The notes below the pieces were generated by a model, which saw only the letters and a list, made by a program, of their open reading frames with translations, ran no database searches and was not told the DNA's origin. From assembly GCF_030816965.1 (NCBI RefSeq), contig NZ_JAUSYQ010000002.1, forward strand, positions 1,178,001-1,242,000: a DNA stretch of 64,000 nucleotides, given 5' to 3'. The position numbers and the translations under genes are program-made. The first letter of the stretch is position 1; every line of letters starts with the position of its first letter. The DNA comes from Streptomyces canus. GTDB taxonomy: Bacteria > Actinomycetota > Actinomycetes > Streptomycetales > Streptomycetaceae. Positions 30,813 through 49,343 of the stretch are shown piece after piece.

Positions 30813-31046
30813 GTGGCACACACCTTCGAAGATCTCGTGCAGCTAGAGCAGGCCGCCGTACAGGCCCACCAGCACTACCTCTCCCCCGACGTCGACGACC
30901 CGGACGCGGCCAGGCAAGCCTGGGTTGATGCCGCAGCCGTGTTCCAAGCCGCCGTCACCGAATACGCGGCAGCGGAAGGGAAGAGCCGGGTCGACGTCGA
31001 GATGGCCGCCAAGAAGACCGTCCGGCACCCGGAGACCGAGGGCTAG
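30813..31046 (+). CDS. Small hypothetical protein, 77 residues
   Basis: Acidic helical protein (FEDLVQLEQAAVQAHQHYLS, DDPDAARQAWVDAAAVFQAA). The end RVDVEMAAKKTVRHPETEG is conserved-looking. Stops 4 bp into the convergent DUF6221 gene. Function not recognised. Confidence 0.6.
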   Translation: MAHTFEDLVQLEQAAVQAHQHYLSPDVDDPDAARQAWVDAAAVFQAAVTEYAAAEGKSRVDVEMAAKKTVRHPETEG

Positions 31047-31453
31047 GGTCGCCACTCCTCGCGATAGCCGGGCCGGTCCGCGTATGGGAGCGCGAGAAGG
31101 CGCAGCACCTTGCCGAGCGTCCGCGCACGAGACTGGTCGGCGTTGCTCTGACCCCACGTCGTCCGGCTGTAGCGGTCTGCCTGCTCGAACTCGTCGAGCA
31201 GCTTCCGCTTGGCGTCGATCTCCCGCAGCACCCGCGCCGGATCATGCGCCAGAACATGGGCAACAACCGGCCCCTCAGGCCAGCGTGAAACCCGGCCGTC
31301 CAATGCTCCGCCGACCGAGGAAACCACCCTGCCGCCGTCCGCATCCACGATGCTGCCCGCGTCGGTCACCGCCCACGGGCCACGCGGTGCAGCCTCCGCG
31401 ACCCGCTGCTCCTCGTCGAGCTGGTCGCGCAGGAACTGCACCAGGTCGTTCAC
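31043..31453 (-). CDS. DUF6221 family protein (copy 1)
   Basis: 136 residues. N-terminus LVQFLRDQLDEEQRVAEAAP, a central AHVLAHDPARVLREIDAKR, and a C-terminus LLALPYADRPGYREEWRP. This is the DUF6221 architecture frequent on Streptomyces mobile DNA, function unknown. A second copy is at 42912-43265 in the phage plus-strand operon. A hairpin (31473-31506) precedes it. Confidence 0.85.
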   Translation of the reverse strand: MNDLVQFLRDQLDEEQRVAEAAPRGPWAVTDAGSIVDADGGRVVSSVGGALDGRVSRWPEGPVVAHVLAHDPARVLREIDAKRKLLDEFEQADRYSRTTWGQSNADQSRARTLGKVLRLLALPYADRPGYREEWRP

Positions 31454-32267: not shown

Positions 32268-32606
32268 GTGACCGACCTGCCGCCCGACCTGCCCAGACTC
32301 CGCACCCTGGAGACCTGGCTCGCCCTCACCCTCGACGAAGTACGGGCGGCGATCGCGGCAGCCGAACGGCGGGAAGCCGAACGGCAGCACGGCATCGAGC
32401 GCCGGCCGCCCCCGCCGGACTGGCTCCTCGAGGTCGGCCTCAACCGTGACGCACCGCCCGTCCAAGTCCACGTGGGCGGATGCTGGAACGCAGGCAAGCG
32501 GCACCGCGGCATCGGCCGGGACGAGGCGCTGAGGGCGCTCGCCGACGGGGTGAAAGCCTGCGGAGCCTGCCGGCCAGACAGCGAACTCGGGTTCCTCGAG
32601 GGCTAG
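32268..32606 (+). CDS. DUF6233 family protein
   Basis: 112 residues. Typical opening DLPRLRTLETWLALTLDEVR, then RRPPPPDWLLEVGLN, VHVGGCWNAGKRHRGIGRDEALRALADG and CGACRPDSELG. The family is common on Streptomyces mobile elements and of unknown function; the paired cysteines are conserved and may bind metal. The GTG at 32268 follows GGAG. Convergent with ku and overlapping its stop by 4 bp. Confidence 0.85.
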   Translation: MTDLPPDLPRLRTLETWLALTLDEVRAAIAAAERREAERQHGIERRPPPPDWLLEVGLNRDAPPVQVHVGGCWNAGKRHRGIGRDEALRALADGVKACGACRPDSELGFLEG

Positions 32607-33502
32607 GCGCTCTTCGACTTCCGGGCAGCCGCCTTCTTCGCCGTCTTCTTCGCCGGCTGCTTCTTCGCCGAGTTCTTCGCCGCGGCCTTCTTCGGCATCT
32701 CGTGAACGTCGGCGTCCTCACCGCGGGACGCCTTGGCCTTCTCGACCGACTCGTTGAGGGCGGCCATGAGGTCGAGGATCCGGGCGGGCTTCTCGGGCTC
32801 CGGCGCCTCGGGGAGCTCGCGGTCTTCCCGCTTGGCCTCGATGATTTTCGCGAGGGCGTCGGTGTAGGTGTCCTCGAACTCAGGGCCGTCGAGGTCGTCG
32901 CGCGCCATCGACTCCATCAGGGCGAGCGCTCCCTCGATCTCCTCCTCCGACACCTTCTCGTTCGGCGGGTCGACGGCGGCCGGAGGCCGGATTTCGTCAG
33001 GCCACCGCATCGCGTGCAGGACGATCGCGTCGTCGCGGATCCGCAGCAGGCCCAACCGTTCCCGGCCGGACCATGCGTACTTGGCGACGGCCACCTTCGA
33101 CGACCGGCCGAGCGCCTGCACCAGCAGCTTGTACGGCTTCGCCGCCACGGCCCCGTCCGGGGCGAGGTAGTAGCCCTCCCCGATCTGGATCGGGTCGATG
33201 GAGTCGAGCGGCACGAACGCTTCGATCTCGATGGCCTTCGCCGTCGGCAGCGGCAGCTCCCGCAGCTCCTCATCAGAGATGGCGACGACCTTGTCTTTGG
33301 CGTACTCGTAGCCCTTGCCGATCTCCGACTGGGCGATCTCCCGGTCCTCCAACTCGCACACCTTCTTCACCCGCACCCGCCCCATGTCCTCCAGGTGGTA
33401 CTGGTGGAACTGGATCGAGTGATTCTCGGTAGCACTTTGGACGTGACAAGGCACCGTGACCAGGCCAAACGAGATGGCGCCGCTCCAGATGGTTCGGGGC
33501 AT
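32603..33502 (-). CDS. ku: Ku-like DNA end-binding protein
   Basis: Bacterial Ku of the non-homologous end-joining pathway, 299 residues. Starts MPRTIWSGAISFGLVTVPCH, the canonical N-terminus, and shows the core ring residues in VCELEDREIAQSEIGKGYEY and DDAIVLHAMRWPDEIRP. The C-terminus is a Lys/Ala-rich tail (KKAAAKNSAKKQPAKKTAKK) that usually binds DNA non-specifically. No LigD is adjacent. Its place among mobile-element style genes suggests a transferred or phage-associated paralogue rather than the chromosomal core copy, but that is inference. Confidence 0.93.
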   Translation of the reverse strand: MPRTIWSGAISFGLVTVPCHVQSATENHSIQFHQYHLEDMGRVRVKKVCELEDREIAQSEIGKGYEYAKDKVVAISDEELRELPLPTAKAIEIEAFVPLDSIDPIQIGEGYYLAPDGAVAAKPYKLLVQALGRSSKVAVAKYAWSGRERLGLLRIRDDAIVLHAMRWPDEIRPPAAVDPPNEKVSEEEIEGALALMESMARDDLDGPEFEDTYTDALAKIIEAKREDRELPEAPEPEKPARILDLMAALNESVEKAKASRGEDADVHEMPKKAAAKNSAKKQPAKKTAKKAAARKSKSA

Positions 33503-34148: not shown

Positions 34149-35189
34149 CTACTCGGCGGCGTCTTGCTGGAGCCGCTCCCCGAGTTTGGCGGCGAGGGCG
34201 TAGGCGGGGTGGTTGTCGAGCTGGCGGCGTCGCCGGTTGTAGCGCTGGGTGGTACGCGGGTCGGAGTGGCTGACGGCGTCCTGGACGTCCTGGAGCGGCA
34301 CGCCGTTGGCGAGGTTGTCAGTGATGAACTGGTGCCGCAGCGTGTGGGGCTTGATGGTGGCGGCTTGCGGGATTTCGGCGCGTCGGGCGAGGACGCGGAG
34401 GTGCTTCCACACTTCGGGCTGGGTCCAGCGGCGGCCGGTCTCGGTGACGAACAGCGGGCCGTTGGCGCGGTCGCCGAGGTGGGCGAGGAGCGCGTCGAGG
34501 GCGAGCGGCGGTACGGGGGCGGGCCGTTTCTTGCCGCCCTTCTGTGTGAGGGGCAGGGTGCGGTGTCCTCGGTCGTAGCCGAGCTGGTCGGCGTTCAACG
34601 AGAGGAGTTCGTCGACGCGGGCGCCGGTGAGGTAGAGCAGCATGACGAGGGCGTAGGAGCGGGGCGCCCAGTTGCGTGCGGTCTCGATGAGCCGGGTGGT
34701 CTCGTCCTCGGTCATCCCCTCCGTCGGCGAGTAATCGGGGTCGACGTAGGGCCGGAGAACGGCGGCGAACGGGTCGCTGTCGACGGCCTGTAGGCGGGCG
34801 GCGTAGGTGTAGAAGCTCCCGGCGGCGGCGAGGGCTTGGGCCTGGGTGGTCTCGGCAGGCGGCTTGCCGTTGCGGGTGGGGGTCTTGGCGAGGTGCTTGG
34901 CGTAGGCGTCGGCGAGCGGCAGCTTCGCCTGCAACGGGTGGATGCCGGTGGAGCGGGCGTACTCCTCCCACGCCTTGAACGTGCGGACGTAGGCCCGCCT
35001 CGTGTGGCGGCTCTTCTGTCGGGCGATCCATCCTCCGGCGATGGTGGGGAGCGGGTCGCGGTCGCCGTAGATGGCGGTGAGGTGGTCGGCGAGTTGGCGG
35101 GCTTCGTCGGGCCAGTCGTCGCGGGGGTCGTGTCGGTCGGTCGACAGTTCCGCCGACGGACGCGGGACGAGGGCGGCGGGATCGGTCAC
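34149..35189 (-). CDS. int: Tyrosine site-specific recombinase (phage integrase)
   Basis: 346 residues with an N-terminal SAM-like core-binding domain (about 30-150) and the C-terminal catalytic domain. Catalytic residues are visible: Arg191 in TGARVDELL, the Lys strand in QKGGKKRP, His282-x-x-Arg285 in PHTLRHQF, His308 in VSHSDP and the nucleophile Tyr317 in TTQRYNRR. It should integrate the prophage into a host att site. The GTG start overlaps the stop of the upstream 71-residue gene (GTGA), giving translational coupling. A HTH excisionase-like gene lies 550 bp upstream on the same strand. Confidence 0.93.
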   Translation of the reverse strand: MTDPAALVPRPSAELSTDRHDPRDDWPDEARQLADHLTAIYGDRDPLPTIAGGWIARQKSRHTRRAYVRTFKAWEEYARSTGIHPLQAKLPLADAYAKHLAKTPTRNGKPPAETTQAQALAAAGSFYTYAARLQAVDSDPFAAVLRPYVDPDYSPTEGMTEDETTRLIETARNWAPRSYALVMLLYLTGARVDELLSLNADQLGYDRGHRTLPLTQKGGKKRPAPVPPLALDALLAHLGDRANGPLFVTETGRRWTQPEVWKHLRVLARRAEIPQAATIKPHTLRHQFITDNLANGVPLQDVQDAVSHSDPRTTQRYNRRRRQLDNHPAYALAAKLGERLQQDAAE

Positions 35190-36215: not shown

Positions 36216-36863
36216 CTATACGTACTGTCGGCGCTGCGGGTCGAGGCTCAGCACCTGCGGGGACGGCGAGTCGGAGTCCCCGGGCTGCGGGGCGCCGTCT
36301 TTGCGGCAGACGAGCGCGTCCGGGTCGTAGGACGGGGCTTGCAGCGAATAGCCGTCGGGGCAGGTCGGTCCTGGGGGGCCAGCGGGCCCTTGCTCGCCGG
36401 TGTCGCCCTTGGCGCCCTGCGGGCCGGGTTCGCCTTGTGGACCGGCCGGGCCTGGCTCGCCCTGGGGTCCTTGGGGGCCGGCGGTCCCGACTGGACCTGT
36501 CGCTCCGACAGGTCCCGGGGTTCCGACCGCGCCCGGTGCTCCGCTGGCTCCGCCCTTACCGTTGGCTCCGGCCGGTCCAGGCGGTCCCGTGGGCCCAGTC
36601 GCTCCCGCCGGACCGGGCGGCCCAGTCACTGACACGCCAGGCTCGCCACGGCTCCCCGGCGGACCCGCGACCGGTGTTCCACCCAAGCCCTGCACCTGCC
36701 GGGCCAGCGCATCCCGGGCGGCGTTCGACGCGCGCAGGTCGTGGGAGAGGGCTTGCATGGTGATGACGACCCATGCCAGGACGGCGAGGACTACGACTGC
36801 GCCCGCCGCGAAGCGAAGGTCGCCGACACGTCTGGCTTTGACTCGGGAGCCGTGATTGCTCAC
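36216..36863 (-). CDS. Membrane-anchored collagen-like protein
   Basis: 215 residues. One TM helix near the N-terminus ([20 protein letters not shown]), a short coiled region, then about 100 residues of Gly-X-Y triplets (from [10 protein letters not shown] to GPAGPPGPT), which should form a trimeric triple helix. The C-terminal cap ([19 protein letters not shown]) has two Cys. Collagen-like proteins occur on phage and bacterial surfaces; here it is in the lysis module, so it may be a phage surface or fibre-type protein. GTG start overlaps the previous stop. Confidence 0.8.
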
Positions 36864-38268: not shown

Positions 38269-38469
38269 TCATTTTTCTGCTTCCTGTTCGGCGCGGCTTG
38301 CCTTCGCCGCGGAGAGATGGGCTGCCACATTCGCGTAGAGCGACATGAAGGCGATCCAGAGGACGGAGTTCTTCCAAAGGATCAGCGTGGGGATGAGCAG
38401 GAGCGTCCAGACGCTGGCCATGCAGTAGTGGAGGACAGCGACCCGCTTCGGGGTCAGGGCGCTACTCAC
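38269..38469 (-). CDS. Small membrane protein, 66 residues
   Basis: Two hydrophobic segments (VLHYCMASVWTLLLIPTLIL, SVLWIAFMSLYANVAAHL) and a charged C-terminus. Overlaps the endolysin stop by 4 bp (GTGA). Probably part of the lysis module; could be an antiholin or pinholin. Confidence 0.6.
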   Translation of the reverse strand: MSSALTPKRVAVLHYCMASVWTLLLIPTLILWKNSVLWIAFMSLYANVAAHLSAAKASRAEQEAEK

Positions 38470-39377
38470 GCCGTCACCGTGAACCCGTGCCGGGCGGCGA
38501 GGCGGCGCAGGGATGCGGCGCCGGGGATGCCGTCGGCGTCGGTGCCGACGTAGCCGCCGCCAGCTGGGGAGCGCTGCCAGCGGGCATACGCCTCCAAAGT
38601 CTTGGTGCCGAAGCTGCCGTCGACGTACTGGGAGGCGAGCAGGCCCTCGGCTTTGAGTGCCTTCTCGACGGTGAGGACCTCGGCCTTGTGCGTGGTGTGG
38701 CCCTGCGCGGCAGCGGGGTCATGCTTCGCCGCGTAGATGACGTGGGCCAGCGACACCTTCGGCTTCGCTGGCGTGCTCGGCTGCGCGGGCGTAGCGGTGA
38801 CGAATGCCGGCCACGAGCCGGGGTCGGTGTGGTTGTTCTCGGGTACGTCGCCGTGCGCGTACCAGCCGGGTTTGGTGGCCCAGACGGATGCGGAGCGGCG
38901 GGATGTGAAGCCGTCGGGCTTCCCCATGGGCCATGCGTTGGGGACGCCCCAGGAGTGCACCCACGCTTGGAGTTCGGCCCAGCCCTTGCAGGGGGTGTCG
39001 GCGAGTTTGGCGTACACGGTGGAGCCGACACGGCAGTAGGGGAAGAACAGGGCCTCGATCTGGATGACGACCGAGCCCGCGCGGTTGGTGCGGGTGCCGC
39101 CTGCCTGGTCGGCGAGGCTCTTGGAGCGGGAGTTCGCGGGCACGAACTGGGTGATGCGGCCGGTGAACGGGTCCCACAGGATGTGCGGTGCGACCGCCTT
39201 GCCGCTGCCTGCGAAGTAGGAGCGGAGCCGCTCGTAGGGCACGAGGTCCTGCGGCTTCGCTGCGGTTGCGTTGACGTCCCAGGTGATGTGGGCGATGGCT
39301 TTGGCGGGGCCGCCGTCGGTCGGGGCGTGGTCGCCGAGGTCGAGGCGGGTTGCGCCTGGCATCCAGAGGTCGGCCAT
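38466..39377 (-). CDS. Phage endolysin: N-acetylmuramoyl-L-alanine amidase with peptidoglycan-binding domain
   Basis: 303 residues. The N-terminal half is an amidase_2-like/PGRP-like domain beginning MADLWMPGATRLDLGDHAPT and containing AHITWDVNAT (first metal His), ILWDPFTGRITQFVPA, and HGDVPENNHTDPGSW (metal His and Asp set). A Pro/Ala linker (TPAQPSTPAKPK) leads to a C-terminal binding domain with VDGSFGTKTLEAYARWQ and DGIPGAASLRRLAARH. Cleaves the sugar-peptide bond for host lysis. No signal peptide, so release depends on the holin. Confidence 0.87.
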   Translation of the reverse strand: MADLWMPGATRLDLGDHAPTDGGPAKAIAHITWDVNATAAKPQDLVPYERLRSYFAGSGKAVAPHILWDPFTGRITQFVPANSRSKSLADQAGGTRTNRAGSVVIQIEALFFPYCRVGSTVYAKLADTPCKGWAELQAWVHSWGVPNAWPMGKPDGFTSRRSASVWATKPGWYAHGDVPENNHTDPGSWPAFVTATPAQPSTPAKPKVSLAHVIYAAKHDPAAAQGHTTHKAEVLTVEKALKAEGLLASQYVDGSFGTKTLEAYARWQRSPAGGGYVGTDADGIPGAASLRRLAARHGFTVTA

Positions 39378-39433
39378 GGGTCCTCCTGTCGCCTGACTCT
39401 TCCTTGGAATCGTAGCCTGTAGGCCCAGGTCTA

Positions 39434-39448
39434 CCTACGATTCGTAGG
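39434..39448. promoter_or_regulatory. 15-bp palindrome in the lysis/glycosylation divergent region
   Basis: CCTACGA-T-TCGTAGG, with perfect 7-bp arms. A second pair of inverted words (GTAGCCT 39412-39418, AGGCTAC 39446-39452) surrounds and overlaps it. Candidate operator controlling the divergent endolysin (-) and glycosylation (+) units. Confidence 0.5.
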
Positions 39449-39497
39449 CTACAGTTCTGGCATCCCTGGCTCGGGGATGGCGGCAGGGGACTTCTTT

Positions 39498-39537
39498 GCG
39501 GGTTGACCCCTGCCGCCTCAACCCGCAATCAACCCGC
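39498..39537 (+). promoter_or_regulatory. Triple TCAACCCGC element over a -35-like box
   Basis: GCGGGTTGA (39498-39506) is the exact inverse of TCAACCCGC (39518-39526), 11 bp apart; a third copy TCAACCCGC (39529-39537) follows 11 bp after the second copy's start, so two are on one helical face. The first covers a TTGACC word (39503-39508) that could be a -35 box; a clear -10 is not seen. The start of the plus-strand operon is at 39550. Confidence 0.5.
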
Positions 39538-39549
39538 ACGGGAGCAGCT

Positions 39550-40122
39550 ATGGCCCGCTTGCAGATCCTCGAACTCCCCGCCGGTCCGCATGATGACCGG
39601 CCGCCGTTCGTGCTCGTCGTGGACGAATGCCAGCCGCAGCGTGTAGCCCTCGGCGATGGCGTCCCGTGGCGCGACTACTGGCAAGACCTCGCCGGACAGA
39701 TCGGCGCGCGCGGCGTGGTCGTCACGCCTGACACCGTGACCATCCCCGCCAACGAAGTCCTGCCCCTGCCCCTCTTGTCGGCGGAGACGGACAGCCCGGA
39801 GCGTGCGGGGACGACGGAGATCGTGTACGCCCACGAGCGGACCCGCCTCGATCTGTGCAGCGCGCTGCTCGTGTCGAGCGGCACCGCGTGGCGACAACTC
39901 GTCGAGCTGGCGGGCGAACGGCAGCGGGAACTGGCGGGGCTCTACAAGGAGCGCGACGCCCTCGCCGCCCGCCTCAAGCGAGTCCGCAACCTCTCCGAGC
40001 AGCCGAAGGTTGTTGACGCGTCGATCAAGGATCCGCAGACCTACCGGCACGCCTACAGCGTGGCCATCAGCAACGCCAAGTTCGTTGCCCGAGGGGGCGA
40101 CGAGAAGGCGAGCGGATTGTGA
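39550..40122 (+). CDS. Hypothetical phage protein, first gene of plus-strand operon, 190 residues
   Basis: Unrecognised. N-terminal half mostly beta (LQILELPAGPHDDRPPFVLV, RVALGDGVPWRDYW), C-terminal half helical (RQLVELAGERQRELAGLYKE). RBS GGAG before ATG 39550. Translationally coupled to the next small ORF by a GTGA overlap. Location at the head of a glycosylation-like operon is the only functional hint. Confidence 0.6.
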   Translation: MARLQILELPAGPHDDRPPFVLVVDECQPQRVALGDGVPWRDYWQDLAGQIGARGVVVTPDTVTIPANEVLPLPLLSAETDSPERAGTTEIVYAHERTRLDLCSALLVSSGTAWRQLVELAGERQRELAGLYKERDALAARLKRVRNLSEQPKVVDASIKDPQTYRHAYSVAISNAKFVARGGDEKASGL

Positions 40123-40232
40123 CGGTCATCTGTCAAGCGCTCGGTCTCCTCTTCGCGTTCGTGGTGCTCGCCCCGTATGCGCCGGTCACCTACGACTACC
40201 CGCCGCCCGCCAACGTTCGGAGCCACCGATGA
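40119..40232 (+). CDS. Tiny membrane protein, 37 residues
   Basis: One hydrophobic helix (VTVICQALGLLFAFVVLAPY) and a Pro-rich tail. Start overlaps the previous stop (GTGA) and its stop overlaps the next start (ATGA), so it is embedded in the operon's chain of coupled genes. No known family. Confidence 0.6.
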   Translation: MTVICQALGLLFAFVVLAPYAPVTYDYPPPANVRSHR

Positions 40233-40438
40233 GCCCAGAACTGCCGCCGTTCTCCGGCGACGAACCCACCTGCCCCAAGTGCGGAAACGAGGGTGCCTGC
40301 ACCTTCTACCGCGCCAAGGGCGAGCCCTCGCCCGGTCAGGTCGCTATGGCGAGCACGCTGCCCGAGCGGCTGGAACGGCGGTGCACACGTTGCGACTACG
40401 GATGGGACGAGGCCACCGTCCAGCAGGAGGCGCCGTGA
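40229..40438 (+). CDS. Zinc-ribbon-like protein, 69 residues
   Basis: CPKCGNEGAC early and RCTRCDYGWDEAT late provide two CxxC pairs about 40 residues apart, a probable zinc ribbon. No further domain. Coupled to its neighbours by overlapping stops and starts. Function unknown. Confidence 0.65.
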   Translation: MSPELPPFSGDEPTCPKCGNEGACTFYRAKGEPSPGQVAMASTLPERLERRCTRCDYGWDEATVQQEAP

Positions 40439-40581
40439 GCACTGCCGTCGCCATCACCGCGATCATCGCCGCGCTCCTCCTCGCCAACAGCATCGTCACC
40501 GCCATCCGCGACGTCGCCAAAGCCAAGCACCAAACCTGCCGCCACTGCGGCCGCGACAAGAACAAGGAGAACAGCGCATGA
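40435..40581 (+). CDS. Small membrane protein with CxxC tail, 48 residues
   Basis: TM helix AVAITAIIAALLLANSIVTA followed by a basic cytoplasmic tail with CRHCGRDKNKE. Overlaps neighbours by 4 bp on both sides. Unknown role. Confidence 0.6.
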   Translation: MSTAVAITAIIAALLLANSIVTAIRDVAKAKHQTCRHCGRDKNKENSA

Positions 40582-41660
40582 AGGTCCTCGTCACAGGCGG
40601 CGCCGGATTCATCGGCACCTGGATCAGGCGCGAACTCACCGCGCGCGGCCACAGCATCCTCATCCTCGACCACCAGGACCGGCGCCAGCACCTCGCCGAC
40701 GGGGAGGAGTTCTTCCTCGGCGACGTCCGCGACGCCACGGCGGTGACGGAGGCCGCCGCGCACGTCGACGGGATCATCCACCTCGCCGCCGTCCTCGGCA
40801 CCCAGGAGACCATCAGCAACCCCCGCCCGAGTGCGGAAACGAACATCCTCGGCTCGCTGAACGTCTTCGAGGCCGCCACCCAGTACGGGCTCCCGGTCGC
40901 CTACGCCGGAGTCGGCAACCACGCCATGCGGCTCATCGGAACCGGCTGCTACACCATCACCAAGTCGGCCGCCGAAGACCTCGCCCGCATGTACAACCTC
41001 TACCGCGACGGCGGGCAGATCACCATCGTCCGCCCCGTCAACGCCTACGGACCCGGACAGTCCGTCGCGCAGCCCTTCGGGACCTCCAAGGTGAGGAAGA
41101 TCCTCCCCGCGCTGAGTTGCCGCGCCCTGACCGGCGCGCCCATCGAGGTGTACGGCGACGGCACCCAGATCAGCGACTGCGTGTACGTCGCTGACGTCGC
41201 CCGCACATTCGTCACCGCACTGGAGCACACCGCAGTCAACGGACCCACCGAACGCCCCGTCGAGGTCGGCCCGCTCACCTCGGTCACCGTCAACGACATC
41301 GCCCGCCTCGTCGCCGAATACGCCGCCAACGTCACAGGCCGGGAACCGGTGGGGATCAAGCACCTGCCGATGCGGCCGGGTGAGGTCCCGAACGCGGTCG
41401 TCTCCTCCGACACGTCCACGCTGGCGCAGATCGGGATGGCGGCCGCCGACTTCGTACCCCTCGACGAAGGCATCCGACGCACCGTTGACTACTACAACAC
41501 CGAGTGGCTGCCTGGGTATCTGGAGCAGAGCGTCCCGTACAGCAGCGGCGGTGTGGTGCAGCCGGGGAACATCTCGATCAACCTCAAGCCGGGCGAACGC
41601 ATCCTGACTGCGGCCGACCTGGCCCGCGTCGTGGCACGCGATCTGCGTCGTCAGGCCTGA
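40578..41660 (+). CDS. NAD-dependent sugar-nucleotide epimerase/dehydratase (SDR)
   Basis: Extended short-chain dehydrogenase, 360 residues. The NAD-binding Rossmann motif is TGGAGFIG (5-12), an HLAAV segment follows, the catalytic YxxxK is YTITK, and VRPVNAYGPGQ plus GDGTQISDCVYVADVA are the C-terminal substrate-side motifs typical of UDP-/dTDP-sugar epimerases. It should modify a nucleotide sugar used by the glycosyltransferases downstream. The C-terminal 60 residues extend past the usual family end (GGVVQPGNISINLKPGERIL). RBS AAGGAGA before the ATG. Confidence 0.88.
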   Translation: MKVLVTGGAGFIGTWIRRELTARGHSILILDHQDRRQHLADGEEFFLGDVRDATAVTEAAAHVDGIIHLAAVLGTQETISNPRPSAETNILGSLNVFEAATQYGLPVAYAGVGNHAMRLIGTGCYTITKSAAEDLARMYNLYRDGGQITIVRPVNAYGPGQSVAQPFGTSKVRKILPALSCRALTGAPIEVYGDGTQISDCVYVADVARTFVTALEHTAVNGPTERPVEVGPLTSVTVNDIARLVAEYAANVTGREPVGIKHLPMRPGEVPNAVVSSDTSTLAQIGMAAADFVPLDEGIRRTVDYYNTEWLPGYLEQSVPYSSGGVVQPGNISINLKPGERILTAADLARVVARDLRRQA

Positions 41661-41669
41661 GGCGGCGTC

Positions 41670-41900
41670 ATGACCGAGTCGATCGCCCGCCCCCCATACG
41701 GCCACGCCCTCGCCGAGATCAACACCACCGCCGAGGCCCTCCGCGGCATCGAAGCCCTCCCCGACGGACGCCCCCGAGACCTCGACGGCCCCACCACCAT
41801 CGGTGCACTCACCGTCCGCTCCAACCTCGCCATCGCTTCCGCGCTACTCGCGGTCGCCGACGCCCTGCGCGACTCAGCCCCGAACGCTCAGGAGCGCTGA
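41670..41900 (+). CDS. Hypothetical protein, 76 residues
   Basis: Includes YGHALAEINTTAEALRGIEA and TVRSNLAIASALLAVADALR, suggesting a helical protein. No family recognised. Sits between the epimerase and a glycosyltransferase in the same tightly packed operon. Confidence 0.6.
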   Translation: MTESIARPPYGHALAEINTTAEALRGIEALPDGRPRDLDGPTTIGALTVRSNLAIASALLAVADALRDSAPNAQER

Positions 41901-41901
41901 C

Positions 41902-42915
41902 GTGCGCGCCCACTTCTGGTCGGCCGACACGGCAGGGTCGTCTCTGTACAGGGCGATCCTGCCCGGGATGAGCCTGCAATGGCTCGGCCACAACGTGTCC
42001 GGCGGGATGCGGCTCCCCCAGGACTGGCCCGCGCTCGACACGGTCGTCGGCTGCCGGGTCGCCAAGCGCGAGCCGTCCCTCATGTGGCACAAGCTGAAGG
42101 AGCAGGGGAAGCGGCTCGTCCTCGACCTCGACGACGACTACTTCCACATCGACCGCAGCAACCAGGAAGCCCGCCGCGTCTGGGACACGGACATGCTCGG
42201 CAGGCTCGTCGCCAACATGCAGGTAGCCGACCTCGTCACCTGCTGCTCCGAACCCCTCGCCGCCGTCCTTCGCGACTACGCCGAGGACGTGCGAGTCGTC
42301 CCGAACGGCCTGCCCGCTCAGTACCTCGGCACGCCCCGCGACTACGAGGCCGCGGACCGACCTCTGTCGGTCGGATGGGCTGGCACGTCGTCCACCGTCG
42401 CCGAGCTCCCCGAAGCCGTCCGCGCCCTGAACCGGATCGCCCAGTACTCGCGGGCGGGTGGCGGGGTGCAGGTGCGGATCGTCGGCATCGGCCCGGAGCG
42501 TGCTATGTCCCTCGGGCTGCGGGGCCGGCGGGTCGGCGCACTGGGCTGGGTGGAACGGTTCGAGCATTACATGCAGGCGGTCGGCGAGTGGGACGTGTGG
42601 GTGGCGCCGTACCGGGACATCCCGTTCAACCAGGCAAAGTTCCCGACGAAGTTCTTGGAGGCGTCCATCCTCGGCATTCCGCTGATCGCCTCCGACATCG
42701 AGCCGTACCGGCGGGTGATCCGGCATGGGGAGAACGGGTTCCTCGTCCGGCATGAGCACGAGTGGGGCCGGTACTTGAAGCGGCTCGCAGACGACCCCGG
42801 GCTGCGGCAGCGGGTCGGGATGACCGCACGCGGAGAAGCCTCCGGCAGCATCATGCAGGCGCTGCACGTGCAGTGGCAGGACGCGCTTGCCGCGCCCGTG
42901 GGGGTGGCGGCGTGA
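41902..42915 (+). CDS. Glycosyltransferase, GT4-like (GT-B fold)
   Basis: 337 residues of the GT-B group. Asp-rich turn LVLDLDDDYFHIDRSN, then the mid-part VRVVPNGLPAQYLG, the second-domain start PLSVGWAGTSSTVAELPEAV, and the C-terminal nucleotide-sugar site KFPTKFLEASILGIPLIASD with IRHGENGFLVRHEHEWGRYL. The E in KFLEA equals the ExxxxxE-type site. It transfers a sugar from an activated donor. Acceptor could be a phage structural protein or a host surface polymer. GTG at 41902 follows GGAGCG. Confidence 0.83.
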   Translation: MRAHFWSADTAGSSLYRAILPGMSLQWLGHNVSGGMRLPQDWPALDTVVGCRVAKREPSLMWHKLKEQGKRLVLDLDDDYFHIDRSNQEARRVWDTDMLGRLVANMQVADLVTCCSEPLAAVLRDYAEDVRVVPNGLPAQYLGTPRDYEAADRPLSVGWAGTSSTVAELPEAVRALNRIAQYSRAGGGVQVRIVGIGPERAMSLGLRGRRVGALGWVERFEHYMQAVGEWDVWVAPYRDIPFNQAKFPTKFLEASILGIPLIASDIEPYRRVIRHGENGFLVRHEHEWGRYLKRLADDPGLRQRVGMTARGEASGSIMQALHVQWQDALAAPVGVAA

Positions 42916-43265
42916 GCGGGCTGGTGGAGTTCCTGCGGGCGCGGCTCGACGAGGATGAGGCGACGGCGCTCGAAGCCCCGAAGGGGCCGTGGCATATCGG
43001 GAACGCTATTGATCCGACGGAGCCGTGCGACCTGCGCACTTTCCCGGATGTCCGCATGGTGGCCGACGGGCTTAACTGGCTGGTCGCCGAGCACATCGCC
43101 CGTCATAACCCGGCCCGCATCCTCGTCGAGGTCGAAGCCAAGCGGCGGATCGTCGACGACGCATGGGGTGGCCCGGACCATCAGGACATGTGGGAGCACC
43201 ACATTCGCTTGCTCGCCCTGCCCTACGCCAGCCACCCCGACTACCGCGAGGAGTGGAAGCCGTGA
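42912..43265 (+). CDS. DUF6221 family protein (copy 2)
   Basis: 117 residues, opening SGLVEFLRARLDEDEATALE and closing LLALPYASHPDYREEWKP, the same ends as the 31043-31453 copy. Function unknown. The start overlaps the glycosyltransferase stop (GTGA). Confidence 0.85.
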   Translation: MSGLVEFLRARLDEDEATALEAPKGPWHIGNAIDPTEPCDLRTFPDVRMVADGLNWLVAEHIARHNPARILVEVEAKRRIVDDAWGGPDHQDMWEHHIRLLALPYASHPDYREEWKP

Positions 43266-43528
43266 CCGATCCCTTCGACGCGCTGGGAGACCTGCTCCGC
43301 CAGCGACAGCAGGAGCGGGGCCTCACCGAGTTCTTCAGGGTAGGTGAGCTCGTCCGCTTCCCGCTCGGCGTGCACTGGAACCGGGAACGGGACTACCGGA
43401 TTAAGACCATCTACAACAACGGCTTCGAGGTCGAGTGCGACGGCCACGTGTACCCGCATACCGATGCAGACGTGCTGCGGCTCGGCATGACCCACTCGCC
43501 CACCTTGCAGGTAAGGCAGCGGCCGTGA
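43262..43528 (+). CDS. Hypothetical protein, 88 residues
   Basis: Contains FFRVGELVRFPLGVHWNRER and a GHVYPHTDADVLRLG segment, a small beta-rich domain possibly SH3-like. Not recognised. Overlaps both neighbours by 4 bp. Confidence 0.6.
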   Translation: MTDPFDALGDLLRQRQQERGLTEFFRVGELVRFPLGVHWNRERDYRIKTIYNNGFEVECDGHVYPHTDADVLRLGMTHSPTLQVRQRP

Positions 43529-43710
43529 CCGGCCCCGAGCACTACCGCGAAGGTGAGCACCTCCTCGGCCGCTGCCTCGAATTCGGGCACGGCGAGCAGC
43601 GGCAAGCCCTCGCCGTCGAAGCGACCGCGCACTTCCTCGCCGCGCTCGCCGCCCTGCACGCGGCCAATACGCAACCCGACAGCATCACTTGGCAGGAGGC
43701 CACACAGTGA
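43525..43710 (+). CDS. Hypothetical protein, 61 residues
   Basis: Helical: EHYREGEHLLGRCLEFGHGE, then QALAVEATAHFLAALAALHA. This pattern is common in small actinophage proteins. Not assigned. Confidence 0.6.
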   Translation: MTGPEHYREGEHLLGRCLEFGHGEQRQALAVEATAHFLAALAALHAANTQPDSITWQEATQ

Positions 43711-44573
43711 TCGACGGCAGAAGAGTGGTCGCCTGGACGCCCTATGGCCGGGTCCGGACCTACAGCATCCTGATCAAGTACCTGCAGCGGGATGTCGAGC
43801 GTGGCCTCGTCGACGAGGTATGGGCGTTCATGAACACCGACCCCACGGGCCAGGAAGACGACATCGCCTACGCGCACGAGCTCGCCGAGGCGTTCCCGTG
43901 GTTCCGGCTCAAGCACCGGCCGGAGGGCGTCAGCCTCGGGCATCTGCCGAAGCAGCGCTACACAGGCCTGGCGTACCGGTACATGACCGACCCAGACACG
44001 ATCTACCTGCGGCTCGACGACGATGTCGTCTACCTGCACGAGGACGCCGTCGAGAACCTGGTGCGCGCCCGGATTGAGATGCCCGCGCCGATCGCCGTGT
44101 TCCCGATCATCATCAACAACGCGATCTGCTCCCACTTCCTCCAGCTGTGCGGGAAGATCCCCATGGAGTGGGGAACAGTCGGCCCCTACTGCATGGACCC
44201 CACCGGCTGGGCCAACGGCCCGTTCGCCGTCAAGCTCCACGAGATGCTCATGGACCACATTGAGGCTGGCACGGTCGAAGACCTGTACCTGTACCAGGAT
44301 TTCCCGCTGCAGCCCGGCACCCAGTTCTCCGTGAGCTGCTTCGCGTCCCGCGGCGAGGACTACGCCGCCCTCCCCCAGCCCGGAGTCCTCGTCCCCGACG
44401 AGGAGGAAAGCTGGCACACGGTCCACCAGCCGCTCGCCACGGGCCGGCCGAACATCCTCCGCGGGAACTCAGTGATCAGCCACTTCAGCTTCTTCCCGCA
44501 ACATCCGTTCCTCAACGGCACGGATCTCCTGGACCGGTACCGGGAACTCGCAGACAAGGCGGTCACAGCATGA
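43707..44573 (+). CDS. Glycosyltransferase-like protein with DxD motif (GT-A type)
   Basis: 288 residues. Begins VIDGRRVVAWTPYGRVRTYS, then a YLRLDDDVVYLHED block in which the DDD serves as the metal/nucleotide-sugar DxD motif, followed by VFPIIINNAICSHFLQ and an aromatic-rich C-terminus (GNSVISHFSFFPQHPFL). This fits a GT-A-like fold, though no exact family is recognised. Last enzyme in the operon, two genes from the GT4-like enzyme. Confidence 0.7.
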   Translation: MIDGRRVVAWTPYGRVRTYSILIKYLQRDVERGLVDEVWAFMNTDPTGQEDDIAYAHELAEAFPWFRLKHRPEGVSLGHLPKQRYTGLAYRYMTDPDTIYLRLDDDVVYLHEDAVENLVRARIEMPAPIAVFPIIINNAICSHFLQLCGKIPMEWGTVGPYCMDPTGWANGPFAVKLHEMLMDHIEAGTVEDLYLYQDFPLQPGTQFSVSCFASRGEDYAALPQPGVLVPDEEESWHTVHQPLATGRPNILRGNSVISHFSFFPQHPFLNGTDLLDRYRELADKAVTA

Positions 44574-44800
44574 GTCAGCAGATCAGCATGGAAGACGCCT
44601 TCCCCACGTTCGAGAAGAAGGCCACCGAACTCTTCCGAGCCAACATGCTGCTCCAAGCCCAACTCGACGTCCAGGAACGCCAGCTCGCCGCGCTCCGTGA
44701 GGAGAATGAACGCCTCAAGCAGGGCGCGCCCGAAACGCAGGCCGGGGGCCAGGACCTCACCGCCGTGCCCCCATACCAGCCGGCCGACGAGCAGGGCTAA
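44570..44800 (+). CDS. Coiled-coil hypothetical protein, 76 residues
   Basis: FEKKATELFRANMLLQAQLD then QERQLAALREENERLKQGAP form a leucine-zipper-like coiled coil; the C-terminus is polar. Last gene of the plus-strand operon. Could be a trimerisation or scaffold element; no proof. Confidence 0.6.
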   Translation: MSQQISMEDAFPTFEKKATELFRANMLLQAQLDVQERQLAALREENERLKQGAPETQAGGQDLTAVPPYQPADEQG

Positions 44801-44877
44801 GGCCTGCGCCAGCCGAGCAGCGACCCGATCGCGATGACGCCGACCTCGATGAGCAGGATGACTTGGAACGTGTCCAT
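44797..44877 (-). CDS. Tiny membrane protein, 26 residues
   Basis: MDTFQVILLIEVGVIAIGSL then LGWRRP, preceded by GGGAGAACAGC. One TM helix. It overlaps the convergent plus-strand stop by 4 bp. Too short to assign. Confidence 0.5.
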   Translation of the reverse strand: MDTFQVILLIEVGVIAIGSLLGWRRP

Positions 44878-44889
44878 GCTGTTCTCCCT

Positions 44890-45933
44890 TCAGGCGACGC
44901 GCTCGCCGGCGAACCCGCGGCACGTGATGGTGTTGGATGCGGATGCTGCGGACCACGTGGCGCACAGCACCATGTCGTTGGCGATGGTGGTGTCCCTTGT
45001 GATCGGCGCCGAGGTGATCGGCCCGACCGGCGTGTAGGTGGTCACTGAGGTGAGGAAGTTGTGCGTGTACCGGGCCATCGGAGACCAGGTTCCCGATGCG
45101 CCCGTTGTCGCGCAGGCGAGGTAGTACTCGGCCTCCCAGGAGCCGTCGGTGGCGCCGGAGCGGACGGTGACCGCTGGGAACGTCACCATCGTCACCCCGG
45201 ACGTCCCGCCGAGCTTGCACACGAATGTGATCGTCGGCGTGCCCGTCACACCCAGCGTCCCCCATGCCCGAATCCGGTACACCGCGCCGGCGATCGCGTC
45301 GGCGGCGGGGATGGTGTAGGTGGCGATCGCGGTCTGCGTGACCGTGTTCGCGACCGTGGCGGCTGCGGACAGGACCGGCCGGGTCGTCGCGGAGCCGATG
45401 GTGAGGGCGGCGTTGGTGCCTGCGAGGGCGAGGCGTCCGGCTGCGGCGCGGCTGAGGGTGGTGTCGGCTGCGGTGGAGCCGCCTGGGCCCCAGGTGTGGG
45501 CGCCGTCGGCTTCGAGGAGGAAGCGGGAGACGGTGTCGCCGGTGACGCGGGTGGAGAGGATGTCGTCGGTGGATGCGGTGGTGAGGACGGCGAAGCTGGC
45601 GGTGGATCCGCTGGCTCCGACGTTGATCTGCTTGCCCTGGGAGATCTTCAGGTTGTTGTTGAAGGTGCCGCTGGAGTTGGGGATTTCGACCCAGGATGCG
45701 CTGGCGGGTGCGGTGCCGTTGGAGAAGTAGGTGCGGTAGCTGGTGTCGGACTCGGCAATCGGCTTGCCCGAGTACGGGGACGACGGCCGCGTCGATGAGG
45801 TGACGACCTGGAAGCCCGCAGCAGCGTCCAGCTTGTCGAGGTTCTGGCCGATGTCTTGGGTGTAGGAGACGAGTTCGGAGCCATCGGACTTGGACTTGTA
45901 CAGGCCCAGCCTGGTGGTGGACGGATCAGGCAC
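44890..45933 (-). CDS. Probable phage tail fibre/tip protein, 347 residues
   Basis: N-terminus VPDPSTTRLGLYKSKSDGSE then VSYTQDIGQNLDKLDAA is typical of actinophage tail-tip proteins. The middle is Ser/Thr/Gly-rich beta structure; the last half (TVANTVTQTAIATYTIPAAD, RIRAWGTLGVTGTPTITF) is like C-terminal receptor-facing domains. GTG at 45933 overlaps the preceding gene. Receptor-binding is inferred from gene order. Confidence 0.7.
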   Translation of the reverse strand: MPDPSTTRLGLYKSKSDGSELVSYTQDIGQNLDKLDAAAGFQVVTSSTRPSSPYSGKPIAESDTSYRTYFSNGTAPASASWVEIPNSSGTFNNNLKISQGKQINVGASGSTASFAVLTTASTDDILSTRVTGDTVSRFLLEADGAHTWGPGGSTAADTTLSRAAAGRLALAGTNAALTIGSATTRPVLSAAATVANTVTQTAIATYTIPAADAIAGAVYRIRAWGTLGVTGTPTITFVCKLGGTSGVTMVTFPAVTVRSGATDGSWEAEYYLACATTGASGTWSPMARYTHNFLTSVTTYTPVGPITSAPITRDTTIANDMVLCATWSAASASNTITCRGFAGERVA

Positions 45934-46468
45934 GGGGGGCCTCCAGGTAGGTGGTAACAGGGACGGGCAGGCCCCCGTACAGGCGGTTCCAGCGGTTGAC
46001 GTCCACGGCCTCACGCTTGGCGCGGACGCGGTCGGGATCCATGCGGTGGTTGCTGTAGACGTGCGGCAGCAGGCCGTCCGGGTCGGTGACCCGCACCCGG
46101 TCCGTCTTCACCGCGGCAATCCGGGAGCGGTGCGCTTCCCGAGCGTCCCTCGTGGACGTGGCCTGCTGCAGGGTCGGCCCGTGCCGATCCTGCGCCTTCG
46201 CGGCCACCACAGCCTTGACGGGGGGCGCCTTCACGGACTGCGGCAGGGCGGGCGCCGCGGTCTCCTGGTAGGGCTCGTGGAGGATGACATCGAGGATCTC
46301 CGCCGGGTCCGTGAGCCCGTACTCGGCGGCCCGCCACTCGAAGGCGACTTGCGGGATGGCGTGCTGATATCGGACGTCGCCGGGGCGCACGGTGACGACA
46401 AGCCACCCTTCGACGCCGGGGCTGATCTCGCCCGCCAACACGTCTGCGATCTTGTATTCGTCTGGCAT
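45926..46468 (-). CDS. Phage minor structural or assembly protein, 180 residues
   Basis: Starts MPDEYKIADVLAGEISPGVE, followed by TVRPGDVRYQHAIPQVAFEW, and a basic, Arg/Lys-rich C-terminal half (RDAREAHRSRIAAVKTDRVR). No fold recognised. GGAGG precedes the ATG. Coupled between the two tail-tip genes. Confidence 0.6.
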   Translation of the reverse strand: MPDEYKIADVLAGEISPGVEGWLVVTVRPGDVRYQHAIPQVAFEWRAAEYGLTDPAEILDVILHEPYQETAAPALPQSVKAPPVKAVVAAKAQDRHGPTLQQATSTRDAREAHRSRIAAVKTDRVRVTDPDGLLPHVYSNHRMDPDRVRAKREAVDVNRWNRLYGGLPVPVTTYLEAPRA

Positions 46469-46469
46469 G

Positions 46470-49343
46470 TCACATCCTCCAGCACCAGAATTGGACGGCC
46501 GATGCGCCGGTGGTACCGATCGCGTAGTCGAGGCCCGCGCTTGTCGTGGTGGGGGTGGCCGACATGTACACGTAGTTGGCGGGGCTGTCGCGGATCGTCG
46601 CCACCGGGTACATGGGGCTGTCCATGGTGGGCCCCCACGTGACGACCGTTCCGGCCACGGCGGAGGCGTTGTTGATGTTGCCGGTGAACAAACCGTCATT
46701 GGAGGCGGCAGCGCTGTAGTTCGCCCACAGGCCAACATGCCGGGTGCGCCCGGTGGTGAAGTCGAAGTACTGGCCGTTGGTAGTGTCGTCCCAGTTCCAT
46801 CCCACCCGCCCCCTGACCGGGTCGGCGTAGAACTTGCCGCCAGCCGTTCCGCCGGTCTCGAAACCAGAGGTGTAGAGGCCATACGTTGCGATGGCGTAGC
46901 CGCCGTGTACGAACTGTCCGGTCGCTGTGACGGCTTCCATGCGGGCGCCGCCGGTGGAGGTGAGGTAGACGCGGGAGACGGTTTGGGTTCCGCTGCCGTC
47001 GTCGTAGGGGGAGCTGTTCATGCCGAGGCTGACGTCGGTGCCGGCGGACAGGGCGTTGATGTAGCCGTAGTCGGTGCCGGTGTTGGCGTACCAGCGGATC
47101 TCGGGCAGGAAGGTGCTGGTTGGGTTGATCTCGATGCGCTTGCCCGAGGTGCCGGACTTCAGTTGGCCGATGATGGATACGGAGCCGTCGGCTGCGGCGA
47201 TGGACACTGTCTGGGTGCCTGCGTCGTTCCAGGCGCCGATGCCGCCGCTGTTGAGCTCGACGCGGGCTCCGGTGTCGGCGGTTTTGATGCGGGCGCCGAC
47301 GATCCAGTCCGCGTTGATCTGCCCTGCGGTGACTTTGGAGACGGTCAGGTCGGAGATGTGCGCGTCGTCGATGAGGAGGGCGGTCGCGGAGGCGGCGTCG
47401 GACGGTCCGGACTTGTTGCCGGTCTTGTCGACGGCGACGACCCGCACGTAGCGGGCCGACAGCTCCTCGATCTGCGCGGTGAACACGACGGGGATCTGCG
47501 CCTGGATCATCCCCGCGTTCGCGACCGCTTTCCCCTTCAAGGTGGTCGTGTCCGGGGTGAAGCCGGGCTCGTAGGAGACGTGAATCTCCAGATGATCCAG
47601 ATCGGATTCGAGATTGAACGTCCCGCCCGAGCTCTTGCCGAGCGTGTGCGTCACCTGCACCGCGATCCGCGACCCGGCCACCGACGGCGCAGCCGGAGTC
47701 GACGGCGGAATGTTGTCGGTGGACGCCACGAACGTCGTCACCGACGACCAGGCGCCGGTGTTGCCGGTCTTGTCGACGGCGCGGATCTGGATGTCGTAGC
47801 CGATACCCGGGGACAGGTCCTGCAGTTGGGCGGTGGTGGAGTCCCATGGGACGACCATGGTTGACCATTTGCCGGTGGGTGCGGCGAACGGCTGCGCCCA
47901 GATCTGAAGATCCTGCCAGCGGACTTGGGCGACGGCCGCCCACGTCGCCGGATAGATCATGTCCGTGTCGACGGCGTACCGGATCTCGTAGTGATCCCCG
48001 TCGAGGATGGTGGAGCCGTCGACGTTGTTCGGGGCGTTCCACGAGATGACGACACGGGCCCGGGTGAAGCCGCGGTTGTCGAGGTACGCGACCCCGGTGA
48101 ACGGCTCAATCAGCGTCGGCTGGCCCGGCACGCTCGTGTCCGCGTTGGGACGCGAGCCCACCGGCTCCAATGACGAGTTCGTGAGCTGCCGGGAGAAGTC
48201 GCCGACCGTGACCGTGCTCGTCGAATCGGTCTCCCACTCGACGTACTGGGTGAGGTCGATCCACGTGCCGGCTGCGGTGCGGTAGGCGACGGTGTACTGG
48301 TCGGTTATCGACCACTGGGTTTCGGTGACCTGGAGTTTGATCGGGTTGATGCGTTGACCGCGGAACGTGATCTCCGTCGACGTGTCGATCAGTCCGGAGT
48401 CCGGGTCGTACACCCACACCCGGTCCCCCACAACGAAGCTGCCGTGCACGTCGTAGTCCGACGTGGACAGCTGGAGTGCGTTCCGCGTTGACGTGAACTG
48501 CGACAGTGCCAGCTGCGCGCGCGTCGCCGCGTTCGTAGTCGCCGTATCCGACTCTGACACGAGCCGGGTGAGCTTCACGGCGTTGCCGTGAATGTCCTTG
48601 TAGCTGGTGGCCGGGGAGATGTCCGCCGCACCGGTGGCGATGCTCGTGCCCTCGCCCTCCGCGAGCAGGACCACGCGCGTGCTGTAGTCCTCGACGTCCC
48701 GGGTGACGTCCACGCTGCCCGGGAGGGCGCGCATCGCCATGTCCTCGCCGGCGTCCTTGGTGGTGATGACGCACGTCGGGTTGGTGACGAACAGGCTGCT
48801 GTCGGGGCCGGCGTCGAGGGTGCCGTTGCCATTGACCCGCCACGACACCGGAACCGAGGTGGTGGACATGGTTTCGCACACGTAGCTGATCGCGGCACGC
48901 GGCGACTCGTACTGGTGCCGTCCGCTGTACGTGCCGGTGACGCTGTAGAGGGTGCCTGCGGTGACGGCTCCGGAGGCGGGGAGGAGCATGGTGATGGCTG
49001 TAGCGAAGCTGGCGGAGGCGGGTTCGACGGCGTTCTCGTACACCGACCCTTTGCCGTCTTCGTCGCCGAGCCAGAACGCCATGCCGACGCCGCCGATGGC
49101 CAGGTCGTCTTGGGGAGCGCTGGTGCGGCCGTCGTCGCCGATCGTTTTGGTGCGGAGGACGCCGACGTAGCGGGCCACGTCGCGGGCGAGCAGGTTGTCG
49201 CCGTACTGGGCGGGGTCCAACCGGCCGGGGATGATCGCGACGTGCCCGAAGTAGTCGAGGGCGTCGAGGACGTCGCGGGGGGTCTGCGGGAGGAGCTTGA
49301 TCTCCCACTGGCCGAGGGCTTTGAGGACCTCCTGAACAGCCAC
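46470..49343 (-). CDS. Large phage tail/tip protein with fibronectin III-like domains
   Basis: 957 residues. N-terminal part resembles siphophage minor-tail/tip proteins (PQTPRDVLDALDYFGHVAII...). A TMDS-like central region leads to two FnIII-like repeats (from about residue 420: RVVISWNAPNNVDGS..., NIPPSTPAAPSVAG...), then a region with VSKVTAGQINADWIVGARIK typical of central-fibre/host-specificity proteins, and a beta-rich C-terminus. The probable central tip fibre. GTG start 7 bp downstream of the preceding stop. Confidence 0.8.
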   Translation of the reverse strand: MAVQEVLKALGQWEIKLLPQTPRDVLDALDYFGHVAIIPGRLDPAQYGDNLLARDVARYVGVLRTKTIGDDGRTSAPQDDLAIGGVGMAFWLGDEDGKGSVYENAVEPASASFATAITMLLPASGAVTAGTLYSVTGTYSGRHQYESPRAAISYVCETMSTTSVPVSWRVNGNGTLDAGPDSSLFVTNPTCVITTKDAGEDMAMRALPGSVDVTRDVEDYSTRVVLLAEGEGTSIATGAADISPATSYKDIHGNAVKLTRLVSESDTATTNAATRAQLALSQFTSTRNALQLSTSDYDVHGSFVVGDRVWVYDPDSGLIDTSTEITFRGQRINPIKLQVTETQWSITDQYTVAYRTAAGTWIDLTQYVEWETDSTSTVTVGDFSRQLTNSSLEPVGSRPNADTSVPGQPTLIEPFTGVAYLDNRGFTRARVVISWNAPNNVDGSTILDGDHYEIRYAVDTDMIYPATWAAVAQVRWQDLQIWAQPFAAPTGKWSTMVVPWDSTTAQLQDLSPGIGYDIQIRAVDKTGNTGAWSSVTTFVASTDNIPPSTPAAPSVAGSRIAVQVTHTLGKSSGGTFNLESDLDHLEIHVSYEPGFTPDTTTLKGKAVANAGMIQAQIPVVFTAQIEELSARYVRVVAVDKTGNKSGPSDAASATALLIDDAHISDLTVSKVTAGQINADWIVGARIKTADTGARVELNSGGIGAWNDAGTQTVSIAAADGSVSIIGQLKSGTSGKRIEINPTSTFLPEIRWYANTGTDYGYINALSAGTDVSLGMNSSPYDDGSGTQTVSRVYLTSTGGARMEAVTATGQFVHGGYAIATYGLYTSGFETGGTAGGKFYADPVRGRVGWNWDDTTNGQYFDFTTGRTRHVGLWANYSAAASNDGLFTGNINNASAVAGTVVTWGPTMDSPMYPVATIRDSPANYVYMSATPTTTSAGLDYAIGTTGASAVQFWCWRM

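Follow-up and report, generated by a model that had tools for sequence, protein, structure and literature searches.

A run of plus-strand genes in a prophage of Streptomyces canus is read here as an exchangeable late-gene glycosylation cassette that would act on a phage protein during lytic growth, an interpretation of the sequence that in our judgement has about an even chance of being correct. The run lies in a 64-kb stretch of the chromosome (the window; positions count from its first base and are continued into the genome beyond it) of a 10.66-Mb source genome in two contigs. A perfect 76-bp direct repeat occurs at 28636–28711 and again at 101966–102041, and the 73.4 kb that it brackets contain genes for capsid, portal and large terminase as well as for tail, lysis and integrase. 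An integrase frame extends exactly to the first base of the right-hand copy. We read this element as a complete prophage. The cassette sits between the divergent endolysin gene (38466–39377, minus strand) and the tail-end genes that face it (44890–49343, minus strand; tailC and tailB are named by position, tailA by a match to a minor-tail PHROG).

The cassette comprises 12 plus-strand open reading frames (ORFs) at 39550–44800, and 9 of the 11 junctions between them are 4-bp overlaps. The original prediction of one coupled unit was partly borne out, the count being 12 genes in place of eleven. Three of the products are enzymes, all encoded on the plus strand: EPI (360 aa, 40578–41660), GTB (337 aa, 41902–42915) and GTA (288 aa, 43707–44573). 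EPI is an NAD-dependent epimerase/dehydratase of the short-chain dehydrogenase/reductase (SDR) type; it scored 134 bits with PF01370 against a curated cut-off of 20.9, which makes it an extended SDR sugar-nucleotide enzyme, and the solved sequences matching it at E 1e-20 were an NAD-dependent epimerase/dehydratase and UDP-glucose 4-epimerases. Because EPI fell below the cut-off in all 25 listed of 38 matching NCBIfam models, none of these giving an equivalog-level reaction, its exact reaction is not assignable. GTB is a GT-B, GT4-like glycosyltransferase (GT), scoring 51.8 bits with PF13692 (cut-off 27) and 40.8 bits with PF00534 (cut-off 26.4), and had no relative at E 0.01 among the sequences of solved structures. 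GTA matched no Pfam or NCBIfam family and gave chance-level matches only to sequences of solved structures; 488 homologues were found, and its structure was predicted as a GT-A fold at a pLDDT (predicted local distance difference test) of 95. An acidic metal-binding motif of the DxD type is a criterion for GT-A enzymes, and D104-D105-D106 of GTA is invariant across 45 aligned sequences. Foldseek comparison of GTA with viral models placed a pithovirus protein on top (E 8e-18), followed by mixed GT2-like matches; as a clue to the acceptor these were rejected as uninformative. Distant GTA homologues occur in the planctomycete Botrimarina colliarenosi (L110, 35% identical) and in Synechococcus phage B23 (23%).

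To compare rates of nonsynonymous and synonymous substitution (dN/dS), each window gene was set against relatives more than 60% identical and below saturation, with duplicates kept in. The median dN/dS was 0.23 for GTA (41 relatives), 0.28 for EPI (33 relatives) and 0.31 for GTB (37 relatives), values that place all three genes under purifying selection. Neither did the genes look like a host-like fragment: GTB had one match in the whole genome, and the four other EPI matches there at E 1e-10 were each at most 38% identical. We consider it very improbable that the run is a decaying island without function. Several small ORFs lack an assignment, and one of them, p9, clustered with no other slot gene; against decay stand the 12 frames, all of them open, the purifying selection, the invariant DDD motif, a recurrent gene order and the intact 76-bp end repeats.

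Searching IMG/VR with GTA returned 35 loci. In the genus sample GTA occurred in 3 of 392 genomes, the window's own counted, and five named genome records carried it, four from Streptomyces and one from a planctomycete. The cassette strand encodes EPI, at roughly 50% identity or higher, in 32 of the 35 loci and GTB in 33, and the three enzymes occurred together in 32; the loci missing EPI (L019, L021 and L042) start inside the cassette. In 33 of the 35, tail genes are encoded opposite to the cassette. A second search, for which the neighbouring tail protein served as query, returned 63 loci, of which 26 carried GTA, nine carried a GTB homologue (31–37% identical) opposite the tail genes without GTA, and two (L058 and L094) had their GTB homologue on the same strand as the tail genes; the remaining 26, many of them short or below 50% tail-protein identity, had none of EPI, GTB and GTA in the flank examined. 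Clustering of the slot genes defined cassette types, and at least four contents were found: EPI-GTB-GTA; the same set with a second epimerase (EPI2) and a GT2 enzyme; a 2-oxoglutarate (2OG)-Fe(II) oxygenase with GTs and a methyltransferase; and a GT2-like enzyme with a methyltransferase, an epimerase and a GT. Eleven further contigs with the same leader had no glycosylation gene recognisable by comparison with slot proteins, several of these contigs being short; in three of them (L128, L132 and L160) the plus-strand run terminates within the sequence examined. Cassettes differ between L021 and L026, whose tailA proteins are 98% identical, and the nearest tailA relative of the window (L043, 86%) carries the oxygenase set. 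The cassette is best explained as one version of an exchangeable module in a lineage of Streptomyces temperate phages. The original prediction is supported to this extent: a compact, functional-looking and exchangeable set of glycosylation genes occupies part of a prophage's late region. In three loci the epimerase carries an in-frame, intein-like insert (L009, 6879–8570; L011, 6604–8283; L041), which in L011 scored above the cut-off for LAGLIDADG_3 and below it for Intein_splicing.

The timing of the cassette is suggested by a motif at its start. Two copies lie in the intergenic block between lysin and cassette (39378–39549). The motif TWCGAWTCNNAGG marks the cassette start, and the same type precedes lysin, portal and terminase: the 15-bp palindromic copy CCTACGATTCGTAGG (39434–39448, plus strand) at the cassette start is of the same type as those at the terminase and portal starts, a degenerate copy on the reverse strand, TACGATTCCAAGG (39402–39416), is oriented toward the lysin, the form TTCGATTCAAAGG precedes the portal ORF and points at it, and the form TACGATTCAAAGG precedes and points at the ORF ahead of the large terminase. 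The last ORF bears the PHROG label 'Rnase E', so that 'small terminase' and 'terminase-side ORF' are positional names only. Within the 73.4-kb prophage the 13-base form of the motif occurred only at these four starts, and 28.6 kb of adjoining host DNA had none. The pattern TACGATTCNNAGG had four matches in the 10.66-Mb genome, at the lysin, the cassette, the terminase side and a coding frame at 9.37 Mb, with 0 matches genome-wide for the reversed control; the portal form, in a pattern written from that site itself, matched once, at the portal site. The frame holding the fourth TACGATTCNNAGG copy (L214; C2, about 9.37 Mb) resembles a D-Ala-D-Lac ligase, with a dehydrogenase-like frame nearby, van-type by eye. 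Among relatives, a motif lay upstream of the terminase-side ORF in 18 of 21 loci, some of them duplicates (no more than 121 bases from the aligned start in 14 loci, and at 291–362 in the other four), and two of the three loci lacking it have less than 70 bp upstream; a portal-type copy in the same direction was present in 11 of the 21. In genome G206 the motif is found at the cassette and the lysin and also ahead of the terminase-side ORF. That the cassette has a control motif in common with late genes suggests late lytic expression and favours virion glycosylation over lysogenic conversion.

Prophage-encoded TarP and gtr clusters are examples of lysogenic receptor change, and the original prediction allowed for superinfection exclusion or a changed receptor in the lysogen. 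Under such lysogenic conversion the enzymes would glycosylate a host wall polymer and so block or change the receptors for other phages. This possibility, which we regard as unlikely, is weakened by the start motif, which the cassette has in common with the terminase, portal and lysin genes. The gtrABC serotype-conversion clusters, moreover, include a polytopic membrane flippase/transferase, whereas hydropathy analysis found no polytopic membrane protein among the cassette proteins; a strong single hydrophobic segment occurred only in the small proteins p2 and p4. A different use of late expression would be receptor masking, in which the host surface is modified just before lysis and progeny avoid debris or dying mycelium. 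The divergence of cassette and lysin from one control region and the motif common to cassette and late genes are as this would require, but surface turnover would have little time ahead of lysis, and we judge it quite unlikely.

A number of observations weigh against a late-expressed cassette that acts on the virion. Orientation opposite to the late operon, as here, is frequent in lysogenic morons. Every motif copy in the window points at a gene, but direction is not constant across relatives: in G206 the copy that lies between the large terminase and the portal faces away from the latter, and L205 also has a reversed copy. In G257 (40 kb) and G070 (20 kb) the motif was present only at the cassette leader, as a cassette/lysin pair in G257. 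By the strict regular expression, a motif toward the cassette accompanied 41 of 61 leader elements (7 of the 20 failing it are leaders of another type), and in L025, L033 and L125 the cassette-directed motif was present as a distal copy only. Promoter, activator site and operator are all possible functions for the motif, which could thus be an operator in place of a promoter, and its timing is taken from the genes downstream of each copy. The link between tail type and cassette type is also weak, because nearest tail neighbours shared a cassette type, assigned for 56 of 87 sequences, in 27 of 52 cases for tailA and 26 of 49 for tailC, near-duplicates included, against about 0.38 expected from type frequencies alone by arithmetic on the label counts; a glycan matched specifically to tailA and tailC is therefore less likely. 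Finally, the GT-A fold of the model does not name the acceptor of GTA, because it is matched both by polypeptide transferases, with Z up to 14.1, and by teichoic-acid transferases, with Z up to 12.9. TarP, RmlT and GalNAc-T structures have the fold in common with GTA at 10–14% identity among the matches listed, and their acceptor class is not transferable.

Downstream of the motif lies a structured leader. Its hairpin S1 (39479–39517, plus strand) has 11 perfect pairs and a 17-nt loop, and the loop segment TTGCGGGTTGA (39496–39506) is complementary to two repeats, TCAACCCGCAA (39518–39528) and TCAACCCGCAC (39529–39539), after which comes the Shine–Dalgarno (SD) sequence GGGAG (39540–39544). 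This second pairing, S2 (39496–39539, plus strand), is a possible pseudoknot. Across 34 aligned leaders, S1 and S2 pairing held in 97.5% of cells, compared with 37–53% when the partner was slid, and double-sided changes were seen at 7 of 10 S1 stem pairs. For four of five pair-count measures none of 500 shuffles attained the observed value; for the fifth, further standard pair types, 107 did. Because these leaders came from a perfect-stem search, a bias favouring S1, IMG/VR was also scanned with a stem-free loop/repeat pattern: 57 of its 60 matches (52 distinct flanks, many related) had 10 or more stem pairs, counting G-U, versus 9 of 1040 shuffled flanks. Within the main leader class the loop/repeat covariation is thin, as 5 of the 8 S2 pairs never vary and one shows double changes. 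Since the pairing is mostly invariant there, its support was drawn from L064 and L090, leaders of unrelated sequence in which each loop is best matched to its own tail. The energy of the loop-tail duplex was clearly better than with shuffled tails for 4 of 7 leaders tested, and weakly better for L008 (84 of 500 shuffles as strong), L064 (26) and L018 (19). The folding energy of the whole leader is not unusual (z -1.75; 13 of 200 shuffles as good), so that the case for the leader rests on covariation and the pattern scan. A further hairpin, P1 (CATCCCT/GGGGATG; 39461–39479, plus strand), occupies the same place in most relatives with a varying stem sequence; it is weak alone (shuffle p 0.01–0.36 per sequence in 29 sequences) and was retained as a minor feature.

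The unremarkable folding energy is one of the points that would suit a leader acting as DNA, its repeats and their inverted copy binding a regulator and the hairpin being a by-product or a recombination landmark that aids cassette exchange. The repeat core GTGCGGGT/ACCCGCAC, nearly invariant in most rows, and the position of the element at the slot start whatever the cargo would suit it too. Compensatory change in the S1 stem, the placing of the inverted copy in the hairpin loop, and the retention of loop/tail complementarity by L064 and L090 speak against it, and we hold a DNA feature to be possible, on the unlikely side. For an RNA, geometry suggests that a pseudoknot with the stem-adjacent repeat would leave no space for the connecting strand; the second repeat fits, which would put the pairing beside the SD sequence. 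As judged from these features, the leader probably controls translation of the operon. It may be the first known member of a class of cis-regulatory phage RNAs, in which the loop of a long hairpin pairs with one of 2–4 repeats adjacent to the ribosome-binding site and which serves as a late-start 'socket' for interchangeable Streptomyces phage cargo, glycan cassettes among them; for this wider proposal we see the balance as even.

With a covariance model, 30 of the 35 GTA loci were seen to carry the element, the misses being three loci that start inside the cassette and two distant relatives. Twenty-five of the 30 had built the model, and L016, L029, L031, L036 and L041 are independent of it; L044, L054, L106, L144 and L153, also outside model building, matched as well. 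The model missed the slot leaders of L064 and L090. In the genus sample the element occurred in 4 of 295 genomes, one copy each, and the second match in the window's own genome was weak (E 0.12). Rfam gave 0 matches at gathering score in the window and three sub-threshold matches in the leader. Hairpin-plus-repeat leaders lacking the late motif stand ahead of other genes in L140, L145, L148, L156 and L157; in L140 the gene behind the leader is itself followed by a 1145-aa gene.

In the virion glycosylation that we propose, the late programme would switch the cassette on in lytic growth, EPI would make or alter a nucleotide sugar, and GTB and GTA would build a short glycan in the cytoplasm with no lipid flippase. 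Hairpin and loop/repeat pairing by the ribosome-binding site would control translation of the operon, and exchange of the cassette would change the glycan. The acceptor would be a phage protein made at that time: a capsid protein, a tail protein or the collagen-like protein of the prophage. The last (36216–36863, minus strand) is a Gly-X-Y protein with an N-terminal hydrophobic stretch, encoded near the lysis genes, and is a plausible acceptor because collagen-like proteins are often glycosylated. It scored below cut-off with the NCBIfam collagen-like adhesin models, and Gly-X-Y tracts were found in the window and 22 other loci, counting same-phage duplicates and a tract without proline in L059. 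If hydroxylation preceded glycosylation, the oxygenase present in another cassette type would have a place in such a pathway.

Among the characterised phages searched, the same system was not found, and to that extent the original claim that no identical system is known held; contigs of uncultured viruses and genomes of Streptomyces, however, commonly carry close relatives of the cassette. Four cultured Streptomyces phages have partly related or similar sets. In Zuko and KimJongPhill (Zukovirus) a GT is 31–33% identical to GTB and the major capsid is related (51–53%), as is the terminase of KimJongPhill (50.5%). They differ in that their glycosylation genes lie directly before the terminase in the same direction, GTA was not found in either, and the neighbour of the GT, annotated as UDP-glucose dehydrogenase, had no BLASTP match to EPI and a weak one (24–25%) to EPI2 of other cassettes; the KimJongPhill stretch lacks the leader element, and the stretches of both lack the start motif. 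Quantum, a 186-kb phage, encodes gp156, 70% identical to EPI over 314 residues, but the hypothetical protein that follows (gp157) had no detected similarity to the cassette proteins tested. Rooney has a GT, a nucleotidyltransferase and a methyltransferase after the lysin. In cultured relatives, annotated glycosylation genes lie within or adjoining the late operon, in the late direction, a placement that favours the late reading.

Mycobacteriophages are reported to glycosylate capsid and tail tube proteins via actinophage GTs (PMC12363180, which cites Freeman et al. 2023). Che8, Corndog and Myrna are counted among such phages, and the sequence comparison covered Che8. In mycobacteriophage Che8, gp108–110 are actinophage GTs in an overlapping gene run, as in the cassette, but had no BLASTP or phmmer match to EPI, GTB or GTA. 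By analogy, the cassette may work in outline in the same way. For the leader, the nearest likeness is the SAS/ESAS (start-associated sequence and its extended form) of cluster K mycobacteriophages, a start-associated repeat with an upstream inverted repeat and a suspected role in translation (PMC3203893). These differ in sequence from the leader and occur in 11–19 copies per genome, against one here, and the passages of PMC3203893 consulted do not describe loop/repeat complementarity; a search of the window for GGGATAGGAGCCC with at most 2 mismatches gave one match, at 11524, where chance predicts a mean of 2.4. Literature searches among open-licence PMC papers, consulted in passages, showed no report of the cassette, motif or leader, and 'glycosyl' is absent from the main text of the Samy prophage paper (PMC11302927). 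As far as these searches go, the GTA family, the exchangeable slot, the motif in common with late genes and the structured leader are new.

The other cassette genes, all on the plus strand, encode small proteins. From the start of the run these are p1 (190 aa, 39550–40122), with no family match; p2 (37 aa, 40119–40232), a single hydrophobic helix that recurs in relatives; p3 (69 aa, 40229–40438), with two CxxC pairs (phrog_15307); and p4 (48 aa, 40435–40581), a single hydrophobic helix plus CxxC. They are followed, around the enzyme genes, by p6 (76 aa, 41670–41900), with no named function; a DUF6221 protein (117 aa, 42912–43265); p9 (88 aa, 43262–43528), likewise without a named function; p10 (61 aa, 43525–43710; phrog_16141), which is recurrent; and p12 (76 aa, 44570–44800), the recurrent last gene. 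Scans for sigma-70 promoters and intrinsic terminators over 39300–45100 gave no match. A role in anti-phage defence was rejected, PADLOC models matching 0 of 10 cassette proteins in a set that excluded p2 and p4.

Elsewhere in the prophage, a second DUF6221-type protein (phrog_6326) is encoded close to the left end (31043–31453, minus strand), and a Ku gene of non-homologous end joining lies at 32603–33502 (minus strand; 274 bits with NCBIfam TIGR02772, cut-off 150). Two integrase-family genes are present, at 34149–35189 (minus strand) and 100554–101966 (plus strand), and only the right one adjoins an end repeat. An FtsK/SpoIIIE-like protein (phrog_12531; 70640–72910, minus strand) and a GntR-like regulator at 78483, labelled by eye, are reminiscent of genes of conjugative elements.

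With enzyme sets that exchange in one slot, modular variation of a virion (or receptor) glycan becomes testable in phages of antibiotic-producing bacteria. GTA represents a GT-A family that has no Pfam or NCBIfam name, and in the structured leader there is a candidate for a new RNA element of phages. The common start motif, in turn, would allow late genes in this lineage of prophages to be predicted from the sequence.

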